NCBI RefSeq assembly: GCF_947495275.1
Contig: NZ_CANLYL010000015.1
Coordinates: forward strand, 1-64,000
Direction: 5' to 3'
Length of the DNA stretch: 64,000 nt
From: an uncultured Roseobacter sp.
GTDB taxonomy: Bacteria; Pseudomonadota; Alphaproteobacteria; Rhodobacterales; Rhodobacteraceae
Part shown: in pieces, positions 26,062 to 39,252 of the stretch
Numbering within the stretch: the stretch's first letter is position 1
Layout of the letters: every line of letters starts with the position of its first letter
Program-made: the position numbers and the translations under genes
Notes under the pieces: model-generated
Seen by the model: only the letters and a program-made list of their open reading frames with translations
Told to the model about the DNA's origin: nothing
Database searches by the model: none

Positions 26062-28233
26062 TCATTTCCCTTGCTTGAACGGGCTGGCAATCCAATTTGT
26101 CAGACCCTCTGCGTGTTTTTGCATGCGCTGGGCAAAGGGCGTGCTATAGCGAACTAGGGGCACAAAACCGGGGCTGAAAACCGAGGCGTTCCATGTGATC
26201 CTGATCCCGGGCATAAAGGGCAGGGAGCCTGATACCGTGCTGTAGGGTCCGCGGCCACGCCATTCGCCAGTGCGCACATACCCGACCCCATCAAACCCGA
26301 TGAGCAGCTTGTAGCGGTGCGCGTCTACATAAGCGTTCCCCCAAGGTACACTTGGTCCGAAACCGATGCCGGGACGGTTAAATGTCCAGACAAAGACCGC
26401 AGTGGCCAGAGTGAAACCGGGGTTGATGCGCATGGGCACAGCATCTGAAAGGTAGTTCTTAAGGCTGCCAGAGTAGAACATAACCCAACCGCCCATATTC
26501 GCCCCGATCCCGCCTGTCCCCGGGATGACGAAGCGAAAGCCCCAACTGGTTTCAAGACCGGTGTATAGAAGCGCTTCATGGGTGAAGAACTGGCGCAGAA
26601 TACCCGCCGTACGATGTGCCCAACGTTCGATACCTGTATCGCCGGTGACAGCTGCCAACCAACGTGCAACAGGTGCACTGACACGAGAAACGACTTCAAA
26701 TCCGCGCTCAAGGCCAATCAGAAGGCTGACACGTGTGCGCAAGACAGGAGCGACCATCGCATAGCGCGCAGTTGGCAAAGAATTACGCAGGATGGCCAGA
26801 TGAGCTTCGTGCATTGCCCAAACCCGATCGCGCAAATCGCGAGGAGACAAGGCAGCATCGCTCATCAAGACGTGACGCGCCTGAGCATACCGGTTCAGGC
26901 CCTCCAGCAACGCCCGACCGTTTGCGTCGTCACCAGCTGCCATAACTTCAGGCAGCTTCGTAACCAGTTTGGATGGCAAGGCTCTGTAGCCATCCAAGCC
27001 GAGGTGAGACCGTGTCTTAGCCATTGCCTCTAGGGCCTGGGTCGTTGGCAGCTGCAAGAACCGGGTTTCAGCCTCCATATACGCAGACCAGGCATCAGCC
27101 TTGACGTCATCGGCGCGATTGATCTGCAACGACAACGGCAGTTCCTGCAAGGCACCATGAGGTTCGGCTAAAGCGGCATTTCCGGCCGCTTTCTTTCTGG
27201 GGCGCCAGTCGCTAACCAGACGATCCACGACGAAAACGCCGATCATGAGGCTGATGATCAAATCCCAAACAGCCATAGATGACGCGCTTTGCAATACCGC
27301 GATTTGGGGCAGGTCAGACACAACCATTTCAGCGATCATGACCAGGGCAACCGCAAGGATCTTGACCACATAGGCTGCCCCGGGGAAGCCAAGGGCAAGA
27401 ACGCTCAACTCCGATCCGTGTACGCCGCGGCGAAACAAGTTCAATCGCAGAATGTTCGGCACAGCTACACCCAATGCGCCAGCGGCCAGCAGGGCCAGTG
27501 TCTGCCAAGCTGCGAATGCGCCTTCTAAAGCACCGGGAGCACCGTAGAGCACTACAGCGGGCAGTACCAATGCGATGACACCGATGTTGATGTAAAACAC
27601 CTGACGTGCGGGTGTCAGCGGCTTGCCCTTGCGGGTCATGCTGCCTTTCTGAACCCAGAGCATCGACAACTCGCTTACGATGCCACCGGCAACCAAAAGA
27701 GTCAGCAGACCGAGTTTTTCGAGTGTCCAGGCTTCGCTGCCATGTGCGGCCATCAAGCCCAGCAGCAAGAGCGCAAGCGCCATGCCGAAGTCGATCCCGC
27801 GACGTGCCTTGCGGCGTTTCGCGTGCAGGCCGTTGGTACCGTCTTCATCGCCAAAGACCAAAAGTGCTGCTTCGCGTTCCAGCGCAACCTTGATCGGCAG
27901 GGCGGCTGTCACGGCCAGAATTGAAACTTCTAGCGCGACATACCAGAACAGCAATCCACTGCCTGTGATCATTAGAATTGGGAAAAACAACGCGCAAAGC
28001 TCCGCGCGGGAGGGCACAAGATCCCGCACCGCGTTGCGCCCGCCTGCGAGACTGACACCCAGACCCAGCATGGCAGCACCGGTATAGACAGCCAGCGCTG
28101 TGAGCAGGGGCCCTTGGGAGTTTACGCTATCCAGCCCAAAGGCCGAAATGATAAAAGCTCCCAGTCCATAAAACAGCACGTAAAAGAGGGGAGGCCAGCC
28201 AAGGCCTCGGTTAGAGGTTTGAGTATCCGACAT
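26062..28233 (-). CDS. Polytopic membrane protein of unknown function with large soluble C-terminal region
   Basis: A 723-residue protein I do not recognise. Residues 12-340 hold about ten hydrophobic helices, for example PPLFYVLFYGLGAFIISAF, FGMALALLLLGLMAAH and VFYINIGVIALVLPAVVLYG, with charged loops between. Residues 345-723 are soluble: first helical with many Arg/Ala, then a Gly- and aromatic-rich beta region (GTGGIGANMGGWVMFYSG and GEWRGRGPYSTVSGS). It is transcribed away from the five-gene protease/SPFH/ZorA-like operon and shares its promoter region (28234-28425), so it may be part of that system. Ribosome-binding site present in front of ATG 28233. Confidence 0.75.
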   Translation of the reverse strand: MSDTQTSNRGLGWPPLFYVLFYGLGAFIISAFGLDSVNSQGPLLTALAVYTGAAMLGLGVSLAGGRNAVRDLVPSRAELCALFFPILMITGSGLLFWYVALEVSILAVTAALPIKVALEREAALLVFGDEDGTNGLHAKRRKARRGIDFGMALALLLLGLMAAHGSEAWTLEKLGLLTLLVAGGIVSELSMLWVQKGSMTRKGKPLTPARQVFYINIGVIALVLPAVVLYGAPGALEGAFAAWQTLALLAAGALGVAVPNILRLNLFRRGVHGSELSVLALGFPGAAYVVKILAVALVMIAEMVVSDLPQIAVLQSASSMAVWDLIISLMIGVFVVDRLVSDWRPRKKAAGNAALAEPHGALQELPLSLQINRADDVKADAWSAYMEAETRFLQLPTTQALEAMAKTRSHLGLDGYRALPSKLVTKLPEVMAAGDDANGRALLEGLNRYAQARHVLMSDAALSPRDLRDRVWAMHEAHLAILRNSLPTARYAMVAPVLRTRVSLLIGLERGFEVVSRVSAPVARWLAAVTGDTGIERWAHRTAGILRQFFTHEALLYTGLETSWGFRFVIPGTGGIGANMGGWVMFYSGSLKNYLSDAVPMRINPGFTLATAVFVWTFNRPGIGFGPSVPWGNAYVDAHRYKLLIGFDGVGYVRTGEWRGRGPYSTVSGSLPFMPGIRITWNASVFSPGFVPLVRYSTPFAQRMQKHAEGLTNWIASPFKQGK

Positions 28234-28425: not shown

Positions 28426-29376
28426 ATGGGTGTATTGAGCTTTGTGGACGTCTTCGATGTACGCGACATCGAATTCGGTACATCACGCCCTGTTGGCAAA
28501 CTCGAAAAGGTAATGTTGACTTCAGCCACGCGCGTTTTGAACACGGACTCCGATCAAGAAGGCTATGGCGCCTTTCTGTATGGGGAAGAAATTCCGCTCC
28601 AGTTTATTGACATCACCCGGATGGCCGAAGCGCCCGGGGTCGCCGTCAGGCGGCAGGAGTTCAAGATTTTGCCCGGTGATGACACCAAAGATATCGTCCC
28701 GGGCACCCATCTGGTCGTTGCGCAATCACCGCATAGCAGCTACTGGGCCGCAATGTCGCCGCTAAGGCCCCACAGGCGGGAACGTCCAGCTCTTCTGGAC
28801 GACGCCTCAGAGCTTGCACAGCTCAAAGCCGGTATTGCCAAGAGCCCGCGCGACCTTTTCGAAACCCGAAAGGGTGTGCTGACAGCCGCTGTGGAAGAGG
28901 ATGATTTTCGCGTGTTCTTACGCCCGTCGGTACGCGCGCAATACCGACAGCTATCCCATGTCATCGGATATGTGGACGGCAGCGACGGGCCAATCGAAAA
29001 GCTGAACGCGGTCGAGATGGAAATCATGAACAGCAAGCGCCTGAAGGCTACACTTGCAGCCGTTGCCCGGGGTGCGCCCGTTGGCCCTAATCGGTCTCTC
29101 AGCGTTCCCAAGCGCCTGCGCGATGACTTGGAAGGCTTGATGCTCTTTTCGGTCCGGCAGGCTTTGGCCGGGCCCGGTGCCGAGGCCGAACCAGAGACCT
29201 ATGTGGGCAAACCGGTAGGTCTTTATGCCCGTCATCTGTTCATGGACCACGCTCATAATGCGGCGCGTCAGGCGGACGAGACCGGAGACCAGTTAATGGT
29301 TGAACAAGACGCGCTGGAGCGTGGCGACTATGTGCAGCGACAACTCGCGCGGTATCTTTCCGAGCTTTATGCGTGA
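28426..29376 (+). CDS. Hypothetical protein, first gene of the ZorA-like/protease operon
   Basis: A 316-residue protein with no signal peptide and no membrane helix; family not recognised. The N-terminal half is beta-rich (KVMLTSATRVLN, GYGAFLYGEEIPLQFIDI, GTHLVVAQSPH). The C-terminal half is helical and ends with a probable coiled region ERGDYVQRQLARYLSELY. A GGGGTGG ribosome-binding site precedes ATG 28426. The stop overlaps the GTG start of the protease gene by four bases, so both are translated together. It could be an adaptor or regulator of the operon; no function can be stated. Confidence 0.75.
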   Translation: MGVLSFVDVFDVRDIEFGTSRPVGKLEKVMLTSATRVLNTDSDQEGYGAFLYGEEIPLQFIDITRMAEAPGVAVRRQEFKILPGDDTKDIVPGTHLVVAQSPHSSYWAAMSPLRPHRRERPALLDDASELAQLKAGIAKSPRDLFETRKGVLTAAVEEDDFRVFLRPSVRAQYRQLSHVIGYVDGSDGPIEKLNAVEMEIMNSKRLKATLAAVARGAPVGPNRSLSVPKRLRDDLEGLMLFSVRQALAGPGAEAEPETYVGKPVGLYARHLFMDHAHNAARQADETGDQLMVEQDALERGDYVQRQLARYLSELYA

Positions 29377-30659
29377 GCGACATAAAAACAGATAATCTGC
29401 GCGCACGAGCCGATGCATGGGCACGACGACGGCTTGCAGCAATTGGAAAGACGGGTGGATTTGGAACCAAGAGGCATTTCGATTGTCTTGGTACTGGTGT
29501 TTGTGTGGCAAATGGCCTGGTGCTCACAGCCCATCATGTAACCGAGGGTGCCCAGACGCTTTCGATTAAGATCGCCGGGCGGATTGTGTCGGGCGCAGTT
29601 GTCCATGAAGATCGCCAGCACGATCTGTCGCTTGTCAGGCTCGCCGAAGAGATCGGCCAGCCTGTCGTTTTCGCCTTTGGGCAGGACAGCAGCCTGTCAC
29701 AACACGGCCATCTGGTTGCCGCTTTGGGCTACCCGGCCAGCGAAGGAACAGATCAGTTTTCGCTATCTCGATTTCAACCAAAACACTTCGATATGCCGCA
29801 ACATGATCGGCCCGGCGCGGCAACTGGGATTTTGGAGGTGCAGGGTGGTTTGGAAGAAGGGTATAGCGGTGGACCCTTCATGATGATCGAACATGATCTG
29901 ATGCCGATTGTTGGTCAATCGCAAAGGGGCGGGCGCGCGGGGTTTTCGCAGGTGCGGGGAGCCACGCATCTTGTTCACTATCTTTGGGCGCATGACGTGC
30001 AGCCTGTCATCAAACCGTGGTGGGATCTGATCCGTAGGTCTTTGGCCACCCCGAGCGAAAGCCAGCGCTTGTGGGCCGGAGCACTCGGACTGCCGGGAAA
30101 ACATGCCACCGTCCTTCTCGGCCCGCCCATGGCTGAACTGGAACAGCGTTTCACTCTCGTGCCAAACGCAGATGGCAGACCGGTGCTGATGGCGCAATCC
30201 GTGTTGCCATTGGGCGCAATTGGTCTGCCCAACGCCGGCGCTGCGTTGACAGGCTTGAATCCTGCTGACCTGCCGCGATTGTTTGCCCACCTCGGGCCCG
30301 GTTGGCGCTTGCGCCTGCCAACTTTTGATGAGTGGCGCACAGCTCATACCCCCCCGGATCGAGAGGCCCCGCCGCCTTGGCCTGCGGGCCGCGAAACGCT
30401 GGTCGGAAAGCGAGTGCCGCCGCGCGGCCTGCCGGGCCCTTTCGGCGTTCAGATGGCTCCGTTAGGGCATTGGGAGTTGGTCAGCGAAGCGGATGGCACG
30501 CTGAGTATTGTCGCCCCGCCGCTTGAGATCGGAGGCCCGCCACGCAAACGCACCTTGTCTGGTCTGGGCGAAACAGGTGGCGTTGTGCAACGCGTGTGTC
30601 TTGATTTGCCCCAAAACGCATTGGAGCAAACACTAACCGCCGCCAAATGGGAGAGATGA
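29373..30659 (+). CDS. Trypsin-like serine protease fused to a degenerate formylglycine-enzyme-like domain
   Basis: A 428-residue protein without signal peptide, so cytoplasmic. Residues 35-200 form a trypsin-like domain with an apparently complete triad: His55 in TAHHV, Asp84 in HDLSLVRL and Ser165 in GYSGGP. Residues 245-411 look like a shortened FGE/SUMF1-type fold: RLRLPTFDEW (cf. RLPTEAEWE) and FGVQMAPLGHWEL (cf. GLYDMLGNVWEW). The cysteines needed by true formylglycine enzymes are absent, so this part is more likely a binding module. Trypsin and FGE-like modules both recur in bacterial conflict systems. The GTG start at 29373 overlaps the upstream stop; the stop overlaps the next start. 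Confidence 0.8.
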   Translation: MSDIKTDNLRARADAWARRRLAAIGKTGGFGTKRHFDCLGTGVCVANGLVLTAHHVTEGAQTLSIKIAGRIVSGAVVHEDRQHDLSLVRLAEEIGQPVVFAFGQDSSLSQHGHLVAALGYPASEGTDQFSLSRFQPKHFDMPQHDRPGAATGILEVQGGLEEGYSGGPFMMIEHDLMPIVGQSQRGGRAGFSQVRGATHLVHYLWAHDVQPVIKPWWDLIRRSLATPSESQRLWAGALGLPGKHATVLLGPPMAELEQRFTLVPNADGRPVLMAQSVLPLGAIGLPNAGAALTGLNPADLPRLFAHLGPGWRLRLPTFDEWRTAHTPPDREAPPPWPAGRETLVGKRVPPRGLPGPFGVQMAPLGHWELVSEADGTLSIVAPPLEIGGPPRKRTLSGLGETGGVVQRVCLDLPQNALEQTLTAAKWER

Positions 30660-33493
30660 TGACCGAAGATTCACCAAAAGAACCCGAGGCAGAGCCCACA
30701 GAGGAAGTCGTAGATGAACCCGATAGGTCACCTGTGGAAGATGAGGTCGATGAAGATACCCCAGTTGGCGAAACACCGGTGGAAACGGAGTATTCGGATA
30801 TATCAGACGAGGAGGGATCGGATACCTCCAACGGCGTCCTGGGCGGAGACCCGGAAGCAGCGGACTTGCCCAAGTTTCGTCTTAACGATTCTGATCGCGA
30901 CGCTGCGATCCAATCCTATGCTCTTAAGGCTGAGCCAGCTGATCCGACCTATGAGTCGCTTTCCGGCTATGCCGACGCGCTCTTGCAGGCCCTGCAAACC
31001 CACCGACTCGTCGTCATGGCAACACCGCTTTTTGCTCTGGAACTGGCTCAGGCCTGTTTGCACAGTCACCTTGGAGAGCTTGATCTGCATCGCGCAGACA
31101 CCGGCCGGGACAAAGTTGCATTCCCGAAGTCCCTAAGCCTAGCACTAGACGATCATGGTGCGGCTCTGTCCGGGCAGATCATCTTTGTACCGTTAACACA
31201 GCGCCAGTTTGCAACGAATCCCAATACATCTAAGGGCCTTCTTGAAATTAAGACCCTGGCCGAAAAATTTGACCTCAGGGTCTTGGTCACCATTGACCGC
31301 CAAAGCGCGTTCTCGCTGGCCCCGAATGTCGTTTCTGCTGATGTTGCCGGGACAGTCAGGGTTGATTGGATCGCGGCATATCTGTCGCAGTTTGGCGAAG
31401 GCGGGCGGATTTCTTCGCAGGCCATCCATCAGGCGGCGAGCGAACTTCGTCGGGCCGCCGGAGACGAGGCAACGCAGGAGCTGCGCATCGCCGACGATCT
31501 GCTGACCTTCTCAAAAGAATATGGTAGCTCTGGTAACACCATCACCGACAACGAATTTCTGACCCGAATGGTCAATATCGCCCGGCAGGACAAGGCTGCG
31601 CGCGATGCCACATTTGTCGCGAAACTCAACGAAGGATGGGATGCAAGCCTTGTGCGTCTTTTGATGACCTTCATGGCGCTCAGCGCAGACGACAGGCATG
31701 GTCCGAGGATCGAAACGATTTTTCGTTTGGGATCGGAGGTTCTCAAAAACGAGACATTGCAAAAACCCCGCCTGACGCATGTCGAAACCCGCGAAGGAAC
31801 CGATGGTAATCACATCATCACCAAGTCTGAACCAGAGAGTGTGGCAGCCGTACAAGTTTGGTCCGATCAGTTTGATGCGCTAATGCATCGTTGCAACATC
31901 GAAGTGCACGAAGATCATGGTCCCAACTCAGAAGAAGACGGCGTGCCAGAACGTAGTCAAATTCTGCGCTTTCAAATGCTTCAGGGGCGCTCGGTGCCCG
32001 ATATGCTCAGGCGGCTTTACCCCAAAAGCCTAATCGAGACAGGCAATGCCATCCTGAAAGTTTATCCCACCTGTTCGGATAGCTGGATGGATGGCGGCAG
32101 TATGGTACGTACGCTGAGCGAAATGTTGTTCGCAGTTGCGCAAATTCACCCCACAGGGTTTCGGTTTGAGCATTTGTGGTCGGCAACCCTGACCGGGTTG
32201 GAAGAGCAGGAGATTGCGAAGCAAAGCAGCAGCATATTACAAATAATGTACCGCGCGTTTCCTGCGACACGGCTTTTGTACATGTACTGGAAACATGAAA
32301 GCGATCACGGGCGCGGCGATGAACTACTGGAAACTGCGCGCCGGATAATGGTTGACCATATCCGTCTCCGGAAAGATTTCAGCGTCTGTCAGACAGGTAT
32401 TTTTGCGCTTTTGTATCTGTGTATCGAACCCGAGTACCCAACCGCCGACATGTCCAGCACGTTTTTGAAACTGATCGCGGGCGGTGGCAGCAAGCGCAAC
32501 GTTTTTATCGAAGCACTGCAACGGTTGAGCGATACGAAGGAGAACGGATCAGACGCGTCGGTGGCGATCAAGCTGACCCGCAACGTTCTCTATTATGCCA
32601 TGCGCGACGACATCGAGGTGCGCGAGCGACTTGTACTGGATCACTATGCCCATCGGCAGGAAGCCGGCGACACCCGTTATTTTCTTGAACTGATGTATGT
32701 GCGATTGACCTACGACGCCATCAAACTGGACTTCACAAGAGGTGAGACCTCTGGCTCCAAATTGCTGGGAGCGCGTGTTTTTTCAGCGCTGAGCGAAGGC
32801 GAAACTTCGGAAATGGTGAAAGCACTTTGGTCTGCCAAGATTGATTTGCTGCAAATCACCACGCAAGGACAACAACAAAACCACTTTCTCGGAGACGCGG
32901 CGCGTATCCTTTGCTCCAGCTTTGAAGCCTACGCTCGCGCCGAACACACACCCCCCAGCCAAGAGGAAGTGCAGGGTCTCTTGCTTAAGGCGTTGTCGCG
33001 AGATCTAGTGGACCGAGTCAACCGATCCGACGCGAAAATCCGTTCCGCTTGGCAAGACGAAACAAGCAGCGCACCGTTGCAGGCGATCATTGACACGCTC
33101 GAGGGCAATCCCCGAGACGAAGTCGCCGACATCTACTTTTCGACCGCCAGCTTTGTTCGTTCGCTTGCGGTTAGCCGCTGGCCGTTTTTGGCACTTGGCG
33201 ATGATATTGCTGATGATGATATTGAGGAGGCCCGCGCGCATATCGAAGCCTTTCCCGGTCACCTCGCTCGCCATCTTAGCCGCCATGATTGCAGCCTGCT
33301 GCGTCAGCATTGGCGCACCGCCCGCAAGATCCTGTTTGATAGCCTGCCACTTGCCAATGACGTTTTTTCAAGTCAACCTAAACGGGCGTGTTACCGGGGT
33401 TGGGTTGAGGAAAAGCGCGCTGAATTTCAAATGTTGATAGAAGGTCTTTCCGAAATTTCATACGGCTCGGAAGTGATATCGAAGGAGATTTAG
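30656..33493 (+). CDS. Large acidic protein, possible degenerate STAND-like NTPase
   Basis: A 945-residue cytoplasmic protein, not recognised. The first 60 residues are a disordered acidic stretch rich in Glu, Asp and Pro. Residues about 95-240 have the strand order of a P-loop NTPase (THRLVVMATPLFALELAQA, GQIIFVPLTQRQF, LRVLVTIDRQ) but lack any GxxxxGK. The rest (250-945) is a long helical solenoid with aromatic pairs such as RLLYMYWKHESDHG. The start is taken at 30656 because ATG there forms an ATGA junction with the protease stop; ATGs at 30647 and 30659 are alternatives. It sits between the protease and the SPFH-like scaffold. Confidence 0.7.
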   Translation: MMTEDSPKEPEAEPTEEVVDEPDRSPVEDEVDEDTPVGETPVETEYSDISDEEGSDTSNGVLGGDPEAADLPKFRLNDSDRDAAIQSYALKAEPADPTYESLSGYADALLQALQTHRLVVMATPLFALELAQACLHSHLGELDLHRADTGRDKVAFPKSLSLALDDHGAALSGQIIFVPLTQRQFATNPNTSKGLLEIKTLAEKFDLRVLVTIDRQSAFSLAPNVVSADVAGTVRVDWIAAYLSQFGEGGRISSQAIHQAASELRRAAGDEATQELRIADDLLTFSKEYGSSGNTITDNEFLTRMVNIARQDKAARDATFVAKLNEGWDASLVRLLMTFMALSADDRHGPRIETIFRLGSEVLKNETLQKPRLTHVETREGTDGNHIITKSEPESVAAVQVWSDQFDALMHRCNIEVHEDHGPNSEEDGVPERSQILRFQMLQGRSVPDMLRRLYPKSLIETGNAILKVYPTCSDSWMDGGSMVRTLSEMLFAVAQIHPTGFRFEHLWSATLTGLEEQEIAKQSSSILQIMYRAFPATRLLYMYWKHESDHGRGDELLETARRIMVDHIRLRKDFSVCQTGIFALLYLCIEPEYPTADMSSTFLKLIAGGGSKRNVFIEALQRLSDTKENGSDASVAIKLTRNVLYYAMRDDIEVRERLVLDHYAHRQEAGDTRYFLELMYVRLTYDAIKLDFTRGETSGSKLLGARVFSALSEGETSEMVKALWSAKIDLLQITTQGQQQNHFLGDAARILCSSFEAYARAEHTPPSQEEVQGLLLKALSRDLVDRVNRSDAKIRSAWQDETSSAPLQAIIDTLEGNPRDEVADIYFSTASFVRSLAVSRWPFLALGDDIADDDIEEARAHIEAFPGHLARHLSRHDCSLLRQHWRTARKILFDSLPLANDVFSSQPKRACYRGWVEEKRAEFQMLIEGLSEISYGSEVISKEI

Positions 33494-33496
33494 ACG

Positions 33497-35734
33497 GTGT
33501 TGATTAGCGCTATGGACGATTTGATACGGAAGGCCGAAAAGCGCGAAGAATTACCGCCTTTCATGGTTGAAATCCGGACCCGCCCGGACGGGCAGATTGC
33601 GCGGAAACTACTGGAAAGAAGCATCGGCTCCTCGCTCTGGTTCATGCGCCTGGACAGCAAGGTTGAGGTCGGACAACTACCGATTGACTTGCGTGACTTT
33701 CGGGCCAAACGCACTCTGAAAGCGAGTGTGCGTTTGCGGCTGGCCATTCCCAAACCGGGTGAGACAGCGGTAGAGGCCTTGGCGAGCTCGCCCTCTCTAC
33801 CCACCGAATGTGTCCGCGGTTGGGTCAAGGATGTGATGCAGGCGCAGGTCGATGCCTTGGGCCCTGAGGATCTGGCGCTTTGGATGACGCTGAACAGCGG
33901 GAAGCTCGAAGATGACATCTGCAAGGCGCTCAAGGAAAAAGGTTTCCTTGCTGAGGTGCAGGTCGAAACCGGAGACCTGCCAGACACAACGCGCGAGGTA
34001 AAGACAGGAACTTTCAACGTGCGCCCACGCGATGTGGACTGGGCGCTGCCGGTGTCCGTCGGCATCAGGCTTGATCACGCGGGGAAAGCTGAAGTTAAAC
34101 CGCCCGCGAATGAGACCGCGTGGATTAGCGAAATCCGTGAAGTCGTACGCGATTATGTGGAGCGCCACGAGACGCTCGACAGTGTCCGTGAGACCGAAGC
34201 TTTCGCGGACCGCCTCAGACAGCATCTCGACGGCGCCTGCCTGCGTTTTGGCTGGAAAATCGATCGTATGGAGCTGACAAGCGATCTATCGCAGTTCCAA
34301 GAGACGCTCATTGACACGTTTCCTTCGGAATGGCGCTCACACAGTGGTCGTGTTTTTGCATTCCGCACCAAAGTCGAACTGTCTATCGCTGCAAATGGGG
34401 CCAAGCGTTACGTGCAAGCCGAGTTACCCAGTTTGCGCAGTTGGACAGAAAAAAATCTCAAAACCTGTTTTGATAAGATTCTATTCGAACGCGATACCGA
34501 TGACCTGAATCCCGATAACTTCGATTCCGTCAGCTCGAAGTTGCGCGACTGCCTGTCTCGCCGTGCTGAGGAGAAAGGCCTGAAGGTTGGTATTGTCCTG
34601 GTCGAACCTACGATTCCGGAATGGCGATACCTGACAAAACGCGAGTTTGAAGTTGATCAGATGCGTTTTGGCACCACTAATCCTGACCATGATGCAGTGT
34701 TTTCCATGGTCATTCAGGGCAAATTCCCGACTGTCGGACCTGCCTTTCAAGCCGGAAGTGACAAAAAGCCCATACCTCAACAGATCAAAGACACCGGGGT
34801 TGAAGCGGCAAAACTGGTGATGCAGGGGATCGAACTGGAGGATTACATTTCCCACTTCGAAGCGCTCGATAACCGAGTCATGCATAACACCGAGCGCAGT
34901 GAACCCGTCAAAGCCGAATTGGAGCGCGAGATTTCCGCCCGGCTTCTGAGCCATTTGGGGTTTGTCGTCAGCCGCGTTCAAGTAACTAAAATTGACCCGG
35001 AGATCCGCGAAAAGCAGGCTCAGCTATTGCGCGAGGGCCCGCGGGAATTCGTGGTTGATGTTCTGCCTGATGCTCCGGGCATCGACGATCTGTCACCGGG
35101 ATTGCGGCCCAAGGAAGCACTGGTACCGTTCACGCTGAAGGCGGAACTAAGGCCGCCCGACCGGCAGTATGTGGTCAATCTGGCCCTGCGGGAACTCGAC
35201 CCGGACAGACTCTGGGGTCAGATTGAGGGATGGGTACTTGCAGCGCTTGATGGCCGCAGTCACGAAGGGTTGCGCTGCAACGATCTTGAGAGCCATTCCA
35301 GCTTGATCCGTTTGCTCAACGATGAAGTCGGCGCTCTCCTGCTCGCACGCGGCGTTGGAATCGATTTTCTGAGCATTGAGCGCGGCAACAGTGAGGTTGA
35401 GCAAGGCGTCATTGACGAAAAGATTACCCAACCTTTGACCAATCAGAGACACCAAAAAGCGCTCGACGATCTCAGGCGAGAACATGAGTTGGAATACGAA
35501 CGAAGCCACCTTACCGGCGAACGTATCCACCTTGAAGATTTGCAGGCAGCAAGAACCAAGGCCGTCGAAAACGAGGCCCAAAGCCTATCAGAGGTTGAAC
35601 GCGCTATGGCGGAATCGCGGCGCGCACAACGAAACAACCGCCCCCAAGGCGAGATCGGTCATGACCCCAAGACCGAAGACACAGCGGCGGATGGCACAGA
35701 CGACGCCCGCAAGAACCGCTGGTCCAAGAAGTAG
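33497..35734 (+). CDS. Multi-SPFH/band-7-like repeat protein with C-terminal coiled coil
   Basis: A 745-residue protein with no membrane helix. I read five tandem repeats of about 90-100 residues (near 66-160, 171-265, 286-372, 398-500, 540-630). Each starts with a beta strand pair (LKASVRLRLAIP, LPVSVGIRLDH, FRTKVELSIAAN, FSMVIQGKF, FTLKAELRPP), continues with helices and ends with a Gly-containing turn plus strand (EKGFLAEVQVETGD, RFGWKIDRMELTSD, EKGLKVGIVLVEP, HLGFVVSRVQVTKID, ARGVGIDFLSIERG). This matches the SPFH/band-7 pattern of flotillin and stomatin. Residues 640-712 form a charged coiled coil. GTG 33497 is preferred for its GGAG site. It may form a ring or scaffold around the adjacent ZorA-like channel. 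Confidence 0.7.
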   Translation: MLISAMDDLIRKAEKREELPPFMVEIRTRPDGQIARKLLERSIGSSLWFMRLDSKVEVGQLPIDLRDFRAKRTLKASVRLRLAIPKPGETAVEALASSPSLPTECVRGWVKDVMQAQVDALGPEDLALWMTLNSGKLEDDICKALKEKGFLAEVQVETGDLPDTTREVKTGTFNVRPRDVDWALPVSVGIRLDHAGKAEVKPPANETAWISEIREVVRDYVERHETLDSVRETEAFADRLRQHLDGACLRFGWKIDRMELTSDLSQFQETLIDTFPSEWRSHSGRVFAFRTKVELSIAANGAKRYVQAELPSLRSWTEKNLKTCFDKILFERDTDDLNPDNFDSVSSKLRDCLSRRAEEKGLKVGIVLVEPTIPEWRYLTKREFEVDQMRFGTTNPDHDAVFSMVIQGKFPTVGPAFQAGSDKKPIPQQIKDTGVEAAKLVMQGIELEDYISHFEALDNRVMHNTERSEPVKAELEREISARLLSHLGFVVSRVQVTKIDPEIREKQAQLLREGPREFVVDVLPDAPGIDDLSPGLRPKEALVPFTLKAELRPPDRQYVVNLALRELDPDRLWGQIEGWVLAALDGRSHEGLRCNDLESHSSLIRLLNDEVGALLLARGVGIDFLSIERGNSEVEQGVIDEKITQPLTNQRHQKALDDLRREHELEYERSHLTGERIHLEDLQAARTKAVENEAQSLSEVERAMAESRRAQRNNRPQGEIGHDPKTEDTAADGTDDARKNRWSKK

Positions 35735-35741
35735 GTGCGCC

Positions 35742-37280
35742 ATGACATATAGTGATCGGGTCCGTGGCCTCGCGGACAGCGTCTTGCCGCTTATTCTAAC
35801 TGTTTTTCGCCGCGATCTCGGTGAAGGCAAGATTTATTTTCTCGTGGCTGCTGCCTTAACAACGCTGCTGCCTTTCTTATTCGTCATTCAGGCCCCGCGT
35901 GAGTTTTGGTATCTAGGCAAAGGTGCTTTTTTTGTATCGTTGGCTATTTTTCTCGTTTTTACACTGCTTTCGCTGTACTTGGCAGCGGTGACTCTGGTTA
36001 AATTCGCGGCTGAGTATCGCTACGCAATCGCGATTTTCAGGCTGGTGCGCGATGACCTGCAAACGCTTGACGGCGATGATGAAGCGCTGGGTTCCGACGA
36101 CGTTCGACCTCCTCGCTATGTGCCAGCGGAAGCGCGCAATTCGATCTGCGCCAAACTGGTGGTAAAATATTACGACACCGCGCGCGCCTTGCGATCCGAC
36201 GACGGGATCGCCAAACAGGTGATAGAAGCCGAACTTGCGGGGCACCGCGGTAACTTGCGCCCTCTGTCCGGCTTTGCCCTGCGCATCGGCATCCTGTTGA
36301 CGTTCTTCGGCCTGTTGTTCGGGCTTGCACCGGTGGGGGCGGCACTTGACGAAAAGGACATTACCAATATTCCAATAGGCCAATTGCTGAGCGGTCTCAC
36401 AGTGTCCTTTGCGTCGTCAATTGCTGGATTAGCGGCAGCGCTGGTCATCGGGATCATGGGTTTGGCGATTGAGAACGCTTTCCAGAAACTACGCGGAGCG
36501 ATCGAGGATCTGGCTTTGGCGCTTCGGCAGTTATTTTCCCGCGTCCGTTTTGGAGGCGACCTTTCGCAGACAGTCGATCATCTGACATCGGAGATGCGTA
36601 ACCACGCGCGTGAAATGGAAAGCCATGGGGTGCAGGTTGAGCGTACTGTCACCATCGCATCTGAGGCCTTCCGCGATCACACGACCGAAAGCGCTAGGAT
36701 CATGCAGGCTGTTGCGCGCAGCACCGATGATCTTTCAGAGCTCAGCAACCGACATCGCGCGCAAATCGACCGAATTGCAGAAGCAACGAACAGCCTACAT
36801 GGCTTCGAAGAAAAATGGGCAGACCACTTTCGGAAAATGTTGGAAGACAATGCCACGGTAGCCCGAGATCATGCCGCTGATCTTGCCAATTCCCTTGCGA
36901 CCGATCTTGGTACGATACGCGAAGCCATGGTAGAGAGCATGGCCGAGGATCGTTCGCAGTTAAGCGACACCATTGTCGCGTTGTCAAAATCCAACACCCA
37001 AGTTGGCGCAACGCTTGACCAGCTGCAAGGTGAATCCCTAGCACGTGAAGCTGACCTGACGGCTGCGATTTCGGCCCTGACCCGCGAGCTGAAAACCATG
37101 GCCGCCAAAGACAAAGCGCCAAAAAGGAAGCGCAAAGGTGGTTGGGTTTGGGTTCTAATTCTGCTGGGGTTGACCGGCGCGGCACTATATGGCGGCTTCC
37201 CCTTGTATGCGCCGCTCATAGAAGAAATGGCACCGGGCCTGCTGGAGGAACTGGGTTTGCGGCTACAGACGCCTACCTGA
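35742..37280 (+). CDS. MotA/TolQ/ZorA-like channel protein with coiled-coil tail and extra C-terminal helix
   Basis: A 512-residue membrane protein. Helices lie at about 31-50 and 63-88, then a cytoplasmic loop (89-178), then helices at 179-202 and 214-246. The last of these, GLTVSFASSIAGLAAALVIG, matches the proton-channel signature of the MotA/TolQ/ExbB family. Residues 250-460 form a long coiled coil like the tail of ZorA. Unlike ZorA, the protein ends with another membrane helix (466-488, WVWVLILLGLTGAALYGG). The start at 35742 follows the upstream stop by 7 bases with an AGGTG site; the frame is open from 35484 but that overlaps the SPFH-like gene. The convergent neighbour encodes the fitting MotB-like partner. 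Confidence 0.82.
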   Translation: MTYSDRVRGLADSVLPLILTVFRRDLGEGKIYFLVAAALTTLLPFLFVIQAPREFWYLGKGAFFVSLAIFLVFTLLSLYLAAVTLVKFAAEYRYAIAIFRLVRDDLQTLDGDDEALGSDDVRPPRYVPAEARNSICAKLVVKYYDTARALRSDDGIAKQVIEAELAGHRGNLRPLSGFALRIGILLTFFGLLFGLAPVGAALDEKDITNIPIGQLLSGLTVSFASSIAGLAAALVIGIMGLAIENAFQKLRGAIEDLALALRQLFSRVRFGGDLSQTVDHLTSEMRNHAREMESHGVQVERTVTIASEAFRDHTTESARIMQAVARSTDDLSELSNRHRAQIDRIAEATNSLHGFEEKWADHFRKMLEDNATVARDHAADLANSLATDLGTIREAMVESMAEDRSQLSDTIVALSKSNTQVGATLDQLQGESLAREADLTAAISALTRELKTMAAKDKAPKRKRKGGWVWVLILLGLTGAALYGGFPLYAPLIEEMAPGLLEELGLRLQTPT

Positions 37281-38583
37281 CCCGGCTACGCGCTTCGTTA
37301 ACCGCTTTGCGAAAGCCATTCAGCAGCAGTTGATAACTGCATTGTCCGTCTTTCTCAAAGGTGGCGAGAATCTCGACACGACGTTCTTTTGGAAAACTCC
37401 GCCGCCAGAAGAGCCGCTGCGTCGAATCCACTTTGGAGTAAATGTTGTCGAAACTATCCAGATCCAGTGATCCTTGCAGAAAATTCTGCAGGGTCGCGGA
37501 ACGGCTGCGCCCGTACCCTTCGATCGCAATACAGCGCATCGGCACCCCCAAAGATGCTAATTCATATGCAATGGTCAGGGCCCGTTCCGCAGAAAGCTGG
37601 AGGTTGTTGTCGAAACCACGGCGAATACCCCGCGCCATGCGCTCGGGCGACGCGTGGCCCGCAACGCGTACAACATTGGTTTTCTGTAGCGCGATATTGT
37701 TCAACAGCCCCGGCAGCAGCCGGTACATTTCGATCCGACCTCGGGGCGTCAGATTTGCCTTACCTTGCTCGAATACTTCGAGATCGCTGCTGTCGTTCAA
37801 ATTAACGGCAATGCGCCTTTCTTGCAGCCGAAGCTGCTCGTTGGCTGCATCCAGCAGTTGCTGCAATTGAGCTATCCGTGAGTCAAACGCCGAAAGTTGC
37901 GCGTTCGCGTCCTCCAGGAGTGCTGCGTTTTCGGACTGTTGTCGCTCCAAAGCGCGTTTAAGATTGTCCACCTCGCTGGTGGATTGTTGCCCGGCATTGG
38001 AAGCTGATTCTTTGTTTAGTACTTCCACCGCCAATTTTTGCGCCAACAGTTTGTTTTCCTCAACAAGCTTATTGGTGCGCTTGGTCTGTCCGTTCAGCGC
38101 GCGTTCTTTTTGAGCAAGCGAGGCTAGCGCTGTATTCAAACTCCGGCCAAGCTCATCCAACCGCTTGGTCAACTCGCCCTCTCTGCGACTAAGAAAATCT
38201 GACTGTTTGCCCAAATCAATCGCGGCGTTTGCGGAAGCGGTAATCTCTGCACGCAACGAATCAACTTCGGATTGTGCCAGATCGCGAGCAATGCCTGCCG
38301 CCCGGGCATCATCGCGCGCCGCATTCGCTTCTGCCTGACTTCGCGCCAGATCGTTTTCTACCTCAACAATACGCCCTTCCAATATGTCCTGCGAACTTTG
38401 GAATTCCTGATACTCTTCGGCTGGAATGCTCACGATATTTGCGCTTCCTAGCGCTTGTGAAGCAACTTCGGCTTTGCGCTCAATAGCCAAGAGCGTGAGG
38501 ATAACCACCACAAAAGCCAGAAGCGAAATCACCAGATCCATGCCCGGGCCCATCTCGATATCTGCTGAATCCGTATTATCCAT
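37273..38583 (-). CDS. MotB/ZorB-like OmpA-domain protein
   Basis: A 436-residue protein. The N-terminal membrane helix (about residues 15-34, DLVISLLAFVVVILTLLAI) carries Asp16 at its start, the position of the proton-carrying Asp in MotB, TolR and ZorB. A long coiled coil follows (40-255, DILEGRIVEVENDLARSQAE). The C-terminal OmpA-like peptidoglycan-binding domain (about 265-410) shows VVRVAGHASPE, NNLQLSAERALTIAYELASLG, IEGYGRSRS and ERRVEI. Its 3' end overlaps that of the ZorA-like gene by 8 bases in convergent orientation. Together they should make an ion-driven stator-like unit. The gene is not the flagellar motB, although flagellar genes follow. Confidence 0.85.
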   Translation of the reverse strand: MDNTDSADIEMGPGMDLVISLLAFVVVILTLLAIERKAEVASQALGSANIVSIPAEEYQEFQSSQDILEGRIVEVENDLARSQAEANAARDDARAAGIARDLAQSEVDSLRAEITASANAAIDLGKQSDFLSRREGELTKRLDELGRSLNTALASLAQKERALNGQTKRTNKLVEENKLLAQKLAVEVLNKESASNAGQQSTSEVDNLKRALERQQSENAALLEDANAQLSAFDSRIAQLQQLLDAANEQLRLQERRIAVNLNDSSDLEVFEQGKANLTPRGRIEMYRLLPGLLNNIALQKTNVVRVAGHASPERMARGIRRGFDNNLQLSAERALTIAYELASLGVPMRCIAIEGYGRSRSATLQNFLQGSLDLDSFDNIYSKVDSTQRLFWRRSFPKERRVEILATFEKDGQCSYQLLLNGFRKAVNEARSRVR

Positions 38584-38847
38584 AACGCCCCCACCGCTCT
38601 ACGTGTTGACTTTGAACAATCATCGTCAAATTAGAAAGAACTTTGCGAGGCTTTCTGAACCGGGGCTTGCAAAATGGCGGGTTAAATGGCGAGCAGGTCA
38701 ACGGGCACCTGTTTGCACTTCGAGCTTAGGTGCGACGGTAGACCCATGCGAAATGGAACGAGCCAGCAAAGTTGTTCTCGGGGAAAATCTATGAAAACCT
38801 GCTGCGAAGATCAAATCTGACAGAGAACGCCAATTCCGAGCGCTCGC

Positions 38848-39252
38848 TCATTTGAAAACAGTTTGTGAAATAGCTTGCTCCAACCGGCTTTCATTCTTGC
38901 TGCGTTGGAGGCTGGATAGCTGATCATCCAGAAGTTCATCAGCTGCCATCACTTTTCCAAATGCCTGTCTAACTTGTCGAACATGTTGCTCCTTTTCTGC
39001 CAGAACCAATGCCAGCTGCATGTTCAAAGATATTTTTGCTTTTTCCAACCAAGCATTCCATATCACGTCAGCGCCAATAGCCCTCATCTGGAGCTCTCCA
39101 TTCTTTTCGGAGGCGCGCTTTTGTTCGCTTAACTTGATTAATTCATTTCGCAGTGTGTTTTCTCGGGTCAGCAAAGACCGAAAGGCTTGCTGCCTGACCT
39201 GGTACCTGGCGTCGACCAGTTTCCGTAACTGTTCCAATTCAGCAATTTTCAA
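38848..39252 (-). CDS. Small helical protein of the flagellar cluster, FliJ-like in character
   Basis: A 134-residue protein that is helical throughout, with many charged and Gln residues (LRNELIKLSEQKRASEKNGE, LVLAEKEQHVRQVRQAFGKV). Size and coiled-coil character resemble FliJ-type export chaperones, but no diagnostic motif is seen. The start overlaps the stop of flhB by four bases, so it is the last gene of the flhA-fliR-flhB run. A role in flagellar export is inferred from position. Confidence 0.7.
   Translation of the reverse strand: MKIAELEQLRKLVDARYQVRQQAFRSLLTRENTLRNELIKLSEQKRASEKNGELQMRAIGADVIWNAWLEKAKISLNMQLALVLAEKEQHVRQVRQAFGKVMAADELLDDQLSSLQRSKNESRLEQAISQTVFK

Follow-up and report, generated by a model that had tools for sequence, protein, structure and literature searches.

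Zorya systems (types I–III) are built on ZorA, a channel with a long coiled tail, and on ZorB, which carries a transmembrane aspartate and an OmpA-like domain, together with the effector sets ZorC and ZorD, ZorE, or, in type III, ZorF and ZorG. According to the portion of PMC11890865 that was consulted, Zorya has three properties that are important for its function, namely ion flow, the tail of ZorA and the binding of peptidoglycan. A stretch of 64,000 nucleotides from an uncultured Roseobacter sp. (assembly GCF_947495275.1, contig NZ_CANLYL010000015.1, positions 1 to 64,000), termed the window in the following, contains a cassette of six genes in which a ZorA-like and ZorB-like stator pair is joined instead to a predicted trypsin-like protease, a large protein and a protein of tandem SPFH repeats. 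On its sequence, the cassette does not belong to Zorya by membership, because none of the effectors ZorC to ZorG has a match among genes 1-4, and it is more than a chance neighbourhood, because its layout recurs on a plasmid of Neorhizobium.

Two further groups of known systems share parts with the cassette. The MoxR-vWA ternary conflict systems (VMAP, iSTAND), as described in the available portions of PMC7159879 and PMC8195603, use trypsin or TIR effectors, FGS, kinases and Band-7 domains, as well as adaptors without catalytic activity and short domains through which effector and adaptor are matched, and the description in PMC7159879, as far as its available portion goes, is the closest in vocabulary. 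However, none of the six window genes matched MoxR, vWA or VMAP at E<=1 in Pfam, PADLOC and NCBIfam, and within the family described below a vWA protein is present only at the locus of genome G035; a word search of the main texts found no MotA in either paper and neither ExbB nor stator in PMC7159879. The nuclease-protease pairs of Hachiman, AVAST, Lamassu and DRT, as presented in the part of PMC12799240 that was consulted, resemble the cassette in employing a trypsin-like protease as an immune part, but no MBL-fold match was found among the seven window proteins scanned. The gene set is not described in the titles and abstracts of the open-licence literature searched. Because its core pair, the SPFH-repeat protein and the large protein, occurs in no named system found, though the attached parts are of known kinds, the set appears to be new as a combination, and by analogy its role may be in defence.

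An earlier note on this DNA had proposed a ZorA-like channel and a ZorB-like partner with Asp16 and an OmpA domain, and both assignments were borne out. Gene 5 matched the PADLOC model ZorA2 (2.3e-10), and its closest solved relative is the type I ZorA of PDB entry 8vvn (3.6e-5), although it scored 31.9 bits against the NCBIfam ZorA model, far under the cut-off of 190 bits, and Pfam MotA_ExbB was not among its matches listed at E<=1. A hydropathy scan revealed four hydrophobic segments, a coiled tail of about 224 amino acids and, at the C-terminal end, one more hydrophobic segment, the fifth, and gene 5 is thus predicted to encode a MotA-type channel with a long cytoplasmic tail, as in ZorA. 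The product of gene 6 has a single hydrophobic segment, which bears Asp16 and is followed by a coiled stretch and by an OmpA-like domain in the C-terminal part (Pfam OmpA, 3.3e-9; PADLOC ZorB3, 4.4e-9, residues 221-360), so that the combination of a transmembrane aspartate and an OmpA-like domain identifies it as a predicted ZorB-like subunit. Like gene 5, it remains under the curated NCBIfam cut-off.

The matches to ZorA2, to ZorB3 and to a type I ZorA structure would be expected if the cassette were an exotic Zorya system, in which ZorA and ZorB act in a Zorya-like manner with cytosolic effectors that escape recognition. Nevertheless, no model of ZorC, ZorD, ZorE, ZorF or ZorG in PADLOC or NCBIfam matched any of genes 1-4 at E<=1, in agreement with the lack of ZorC, ZorD and ZorE claimed earlier, the NCBIfam score of gene 5 is low, and the tail of gene 5 is closed by the fifth hydrophobic segment, a feature not seen in the part of the description in PMC11890865 that was consulted. 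In addition, the core pair occurs without ZorAB in the stretches read at five other loci. Taken with these points, an exotic Zorya system is distinctly unlikely.

The second occurrence of the layout was found when gene 4 was compared by tblastn with 72,556 plasmid records, which yielded a single match, plasmid CP030828 of Neorhizobium sp. NCHU2750; plasmid searches with the cassette DNA, with P0003, P0013, P0014 and P0019, and with the SPFH protein of genome G817 gave nothing beyond this plasmid. Four genes on one strand encode proteins of 378 amino acids, 431 amino acids (trypsin-like; Trypsin_2, 1.1e-10), 992 amino acids and 824 amino acids (SPFH), and the run adjoins a divergent pair of a ZorA-like (517 amino acids) and a ZorB-like (306 amino acids) gene. 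Identity to the window proteins is about 24% in the two best-matching pairs. Comparison with the window gave 9.6e-15 for the SPFH protein, 1.5e-7 for the ZorA-like and 0.007 for the ZorB-like protein with BLAST, and 2.3e-10, 1.8e-6 and 0.0012, respectively, with hhalign. The ZorA-like protein of Neorhizobium is above the threshold of Pfam MotA_ExbB (5.5e-6). Like its counterpart in the window, it contains four hydrophobic segments, a tail that spans 224 residues from one hydropathy peak to the next, and the fifth segment. The two ZorB-like proteins have the motif GPG-x-DL-x-ISL in common. Sequence comparison thus establishes homology across the two loci for the SPFH and ZorA-like proteins, and weakly for the ZorB-like proteins. 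The co-occurrence of six families that had been proposed as a test therefore holds in one other genome, with two of the six genes corresponding by position alone. Beyond the stator pair of Neorhizobium lie two lipoprotein-like genes and then, at the end of the locus (L011, 10839-13061), a gene for a 740-amino-acid phosphotransferase-like protein (APH, 6.8e-6; weakly TCAD9, 0.037).

The recurrence also bears on the possibility that the cassette consists of two touching neighbours, an SPFH-protease operon and a stator pair unrelated to it, which would be in keeping with the location of gene 6 on the opposite strand and directly next to the point where the flagellar operon ends. However, the same six parts are found in Neorhizobium in a different gene order, and the stator is of the same variant at both loci, in which five segments are combined with a tail about 224 amino acids long. 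This explanation is very unlikely, the least probable of those weighed here.

The SPFH nature of gene 4 had been proposed earlier, and the evidence, which is weak for the protein on its own, is backed by its internal repeats and by a homologue that passes the Band_7 threshold. Alone, gene 4 reached 0.017 against Pfam Band_7, under the cut-off; when the whole genome was searched, the values were 3.3 and 6.8. When it was divided by eye into five units on an alignment of six family members, units 1 and 2 (1.2e-4), 1 and 3 (3.4e-5), 2 and 3 (0.0026) and 1 and 5 (0.0025) matched each other, the pairs 2-5 (0.045) and 3-5 (0.14) were weaker, and unit 4 matched none better than 0.09. Five unit pairs were compared with 30 column shuffles each, and the real pair was equalled by 0/30 for 2-3 and for 2-5, by 1/30 for 2-4 and for 4-5, and by 5/30 for 3-4. 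In a comparison with Band-7 proteins encoded in the same genome, the range for single units was 0.0043 to 0.36, the complete protein gave 0.029, and units 1, 2, 3 and 5 merged gave 9e-5 (negative control, 0.84); it should be noted that unit 4 was excluded from the merge after its poor match, and that one of the five Band-7 proteins (L062) was taken from a wrong open reading frame (ORF), which added noise. The homologue in genome G035 is barely above the Band_7 cut-off (23.8 versus 23.6 bits).

A structural model of gene 4, built from four sequences and of low confidence (predicted local distance difference test score, pLDDT, 43.8), comprises five beta-beta-alpha-alpha-beta units and a long last helix. 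Foldseek returned 111 matches to it, none at E<=0.001, with prohibitin, erlin and stomatin near the top; among the 50 matches listed, HLA chains were also frequent near the top and were taken as noise. On the strength of the merged units and the G035 homologue, gene 4 is a predicted SPFH-fold protein of four to five tandem units. It resembles SPFH/Band-7 proteins such as stomatin, prohibitin and HflK/C in that its merged repeats match their SPFH core, and differs from them in having four to five units per chain and no hydrophobic segment.

Gene 2 has a clear Trypsin_2 match (Pfam, 1.4e-14) and the catalytic motifs LTAHH at 51, with the histidine, and GYSGGP at 163, with the serine, and is thus predicted to encode a trypsin-like protease; it also weakly matches the PADLOC models RT-Protease and LmuA. 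Of the trypsin-FGE fusion suggested in the earlier note, the trypsin half is therefore confirmed and the FGE half is a tentative assignment, as the C-terminal part matched no family at E<=10 and a comparison of this half with FGE-sulfatase gave a 14-column match (0.025). The broader suggestion of an undescribed system is supported in part, with regard to the recurring layout, to its not being fixed and to the lack of Zorya effectors; the proposed coupling of ion flow to proteolysis, a role in phage defence and the FGE-like fusion are putative.

Neither gene 1 nor gene 3 matched any family at E<=1 in Pfam, PADLOC and NCBIfam, and no solved structural relative of gene 3 was found. The first 90 residues of the gene 3 protein contain 31 aspartates and glutamates and 5 lysines and arginines, and its AlphaFold model (pLDDT 38.9) is useless for assigning a fold. 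An inactive STAND/AAA NTPase would be a tentative reading of gene 3; the Walker A pattern (G....GK[ST]) is missing from all seven large proteins of the family, gene 3 included.

The six ORFs are present at the positions given in the earlier note, including the run of five genes on the plus strand (Table 1), with a length of 948 rather than 945 amino acids for the large protein. Genes 1 and 2 overlap by 4 nt and genes 2 and 3 by 13 nt, genes 3 and 4 are separated by 3 nt, and gene 6 converges on gene 5 with an overlap of 8 nt. The probable start of gene 5 is a methionine 7 nt past the gene 4 stop codon, as the first of its hydrophobic segments falls downstream of this residue. The hydropathy scan found no membrane segment in genes 1-4, and the protease, the large protein and the scaffold are therefore taken to be soluble.

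Table 1. Genes of the six-gene cassette in the window
Gene and product	Positions	Strand	Basis
Gene 1, P0001, unassigned protein, 316 aa	28426..29376	+	ORF
Gene 2, trypsin-like serine protease, 428 aa	29373..30659	+	Trypsin_2; C-terminal half with FGE-like motif only
Gene 3, large protein, 948 aa, with a very acidic N-terminus and without Walker A	30647..33493	+	ORF
Gene 4, tandem SPFH-repeat protein, 745 aa, C-terminal coiled coil	33497..35734	+	unit-unit matches
Gene 5, ZorA-like stator channel	35742..37280 (ORF listed from 35484, 598 aa)	+	PADLOC ZorA2
Gene 6, ZorB-like stator subunit, 436 aa	37273..38583	-	OmpA, PADLOC ZorB3, Asp16

Profile searches extended the family to related SPFH-repeat proteins in four Magnetococcales genomes (G717, G711, G804 and G817; three are directly named as such, and G817 was added to the group because it is related to G717) and in G035, which falls into the same class as the window. 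The family is thus wider than ZorAB, with five related loci that carry the pair of SPFH-repeat and large-protein genes. In 7/7 loci the gene adjoining the SPFH-repeat gene encodes a large protein of 838-1031 amino acids. Among the large proteins, those of G711 and G804 show clear homology to that of G717 (1e-54 and 3e-44), that of G817 joins the Magnetococcales set at 1.8e-5 and that of G035 at 0.0012, and homology of the window and Neorhizobium large proteins to this set was not detected (0.031 and 0.18); tests with segments failed to align the large proteins at all. ZorAB was not seen at the five related loci, of which 15-30 kb each were read, those of G711 and G804 lying at contig ends, so that a stator further out is possible. 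These loci represent a modular family, hitherto undescribed, that is built round a core of SPFH repeats and of which the window contains the motor-protease version.

The genes attached to the core pair vary. TIR genes lie beside it in three of the four Magnetococcales loci (G711, G804 and G817), and Pfam TIR, run on two of these, gave 3.7e-30 for G711 and 8e-6, under the cut-off, for G817. In G717, G711 and G804 there is a protein with one membrane segment that looks kinase-like by eye, without a Pfam kinase match in the case of G717, as well as two proteins that resemble lipoproteins on visual inspection, one with a glycine zipper and one with a coiled coil. The G035 locus (L066/L067) encodes a lipoprotein-like glycine-zipper/SH3 protein, an FtsX-like permease, a vWA protein and a true FGE-sulfatase protein (2.9e-24). 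S41-like proteases are encoded beside two Magnetococcales loci (L014, 7125-8573; L020, 3801-5171) and match an annotated carboxyl-terminal processing protease gene near the Neorhizobium locus.

Over their initial 45-50 residues, the TIR proteins (L019, L020 and L021) match the N-terminus of the large protein of their own locus. Shuffled sequences scored as well in 1/1000 cases for G804, 2/1000 for G817 and 48/1000 for G711, in a test for which the pieces had been picked after the motif was noticed. No match was obtained between the TIR motif of G817 and the large protein of either G711 or G804 (788/1000 and 767/1000 shuffles as good), and the closely related G711 and G804 cross-match (0/1000 and 61/1000). 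The shared motif therefore points to the large protein as an effector adaptor, and, by analogy, it would fit the homotypic effector-adaptor domains known from other conflict systems, as reported in the consulted part of PMC8195603.

The joint presence of SPFH-repeat protein, large protein, trypsin-like protease and ZorAB-like pair in two distant genomes is consistent with an envelope-anchored conflict system, serving in defence or programmed damage, in which strain from the motor frees a cytosolic protease; we regard this reading as plausible, though falling somewhat short of probable. Close to the stator, on the cytoplasmic side of the inner membrane, the SPFH-repeat protein would assemble into a ring or cage; the large protein would be an adaptor that holds the effector, and ZorB would sense or grip the cell wall. 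A disturbance of the envelope, for example phage entry, might then allow ion flow to turn the ZorA-like tail, both ends of which seem to be anchored in the membrane, and the resulting strain would alter the assembly of SPFH and large protein, so that the protease is freed to cut its targets; at the related loci, TIR effectors would take the place of the protease on this core. We thus infer an active stator, an SPFH ring, an adaptor role for the large protein, an effector role for the protease and a trigger by phage or envelope damage; the analogy with Zorya is drawn because ion flow, the tail and peptidoglycan binding matter there, and a role in defence would likewise follow by analogy. The more specific proposition of a new class of immune machine, in which a proton- or sodium-driven rotary stator is the mechanical sensor or switch for a protease, an SPFH cage and an adaptor pass on envelope strain, read through the doubly anchored ZorA tail, to the release of a cytosolic trypsin-like effector, and the core is re-used for TIR effectors in other bacteria, is speculative and rather unlikely. 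If it were true, ion-driven stators, which serve in flagella, transport and Zorya, could also switch a protease, a modular family would exist that is built on tandem SPFH domains and has exchangeable effectors (protease, TIR), and bacterial membrane scaffolds akin to prohibitin and stomatin would be connected, in a testable manner, with immunity or with programmed damage.

Several observations weigh against a conflict system of this kind. The full six-part layout was seen at two loci only, and there gene 1 and its 378-amino-acid counterpart have no homology detectable by hhalign and correspond only in place and size, as do the two large proteins, between which homology was also not detected. 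The ZorB-like protein of Neorhizobium matched no OmpA or ZorB model and was assigned by a 23-residue match and its position. Peptidoglycan-binding OmpA domains usually carry an aspartate at a position where the domain of gene 6 reads GHASPE, and the usual aspartate of the binding motif thus looks to be replaced. A link between protease and large protein like that of the TIR proteins was found neither in the window (191/300 shuffles as good) nor in Neorhizobium (90/300). Relatives of the scaffold were absent from viral contigs in a pattern scan that covers close relatives only, and were not found in phage records, and no defence island was seen, PADLOC being blank for the sole flanking gene scanned (26062-28233). 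Finally, the set of FGE, vWA, FtsX-like and SH3 proteins in G035 and the two loci with S41-like proteases would suit a function in the envelope equally well.

Such a function is the basis of an alternative, a machine for envelope maintenance or stress, in which an SPFH scaffold, a stator and lipoproteins span the envelope and the protease carries out quality control. SPFH proteins do perform quality control together with FtsH, and the lipoprotein-like genes with glycine zippers and coiled coils that occur in Neorhizobium and in three of the four Magnetococcales loci, the lipoprotein-like gene, permease and FGE protein of G035 and the neighbouring S41-like proteases would all find a place in it. 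TIR domains, however, are typical of conflict systems, and their presence beside the core in three loci, the very fast divergence of the large proteins and the sporadic presence of the family (as lower bounds from a limited search) argue against a maintenance machine, which is possible but on the unlikely side, more so than an envelope-anchored conflict system.

In all distribution tallies the genome of the window itself is included. Gene 4 was found in 1/19 genomes of the genus and in 1/295 genomes of a family sample, in both cases its own, with P0004 as the single query; a two-sequence profile gave 1/385 in the class, and a six-sequence profile 3/275 in the class, one of them weak, and 5/398 in the phylum. 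The class profile search also gave G051 at 3.5e-4. All tallies are lower bounds, because the two-sequence profile missed G035, which was later caught by the six-sequence profile. Two pattern scans of the genome collection retrieved no relative and merely three Magnetococcales again, respectively. A housekeeping locus is ruled out by the genus and family tallies, and the view that the set might be fixed in all Rhodobacterales, raised earlier as a possible refutation, can be set aside. ZorA matches were present in 8/59 related genomes; their loci L002-L008 span 3-4 kb, so that neighbourhoods are barely visible, and by eye L003, L004, L005 and L007 appear to contain a different pair of stator and peptidoglycan-binding protein, and L002 and L006 other ZorAB-type pairs.

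On the opposite strand beside the cassette (26062-28233) lies a gene for a 723-amino-acid membrane protein, which has no match in Pfam, PADLOC or NCBIfam and is present in 1/18 genomes of the genus, its own. The window begins at base 1 of its contig. On the other side, the cassette adjoins genes that we take by eye to be flagellar. An flhB-like gene is present in 17/18 genomes of the genus, and in the six genomes read out of the 16 others it is followed by a 134-amino-acid gene and then by more flagellar genes. In the genome of the window these downstream genes are located on another contig (C3, about 430000-435400), and therefore the flagellar cluster, which is unbroken in the six relatives read, is split here at the site of the cassette (window positions 38584-39252).

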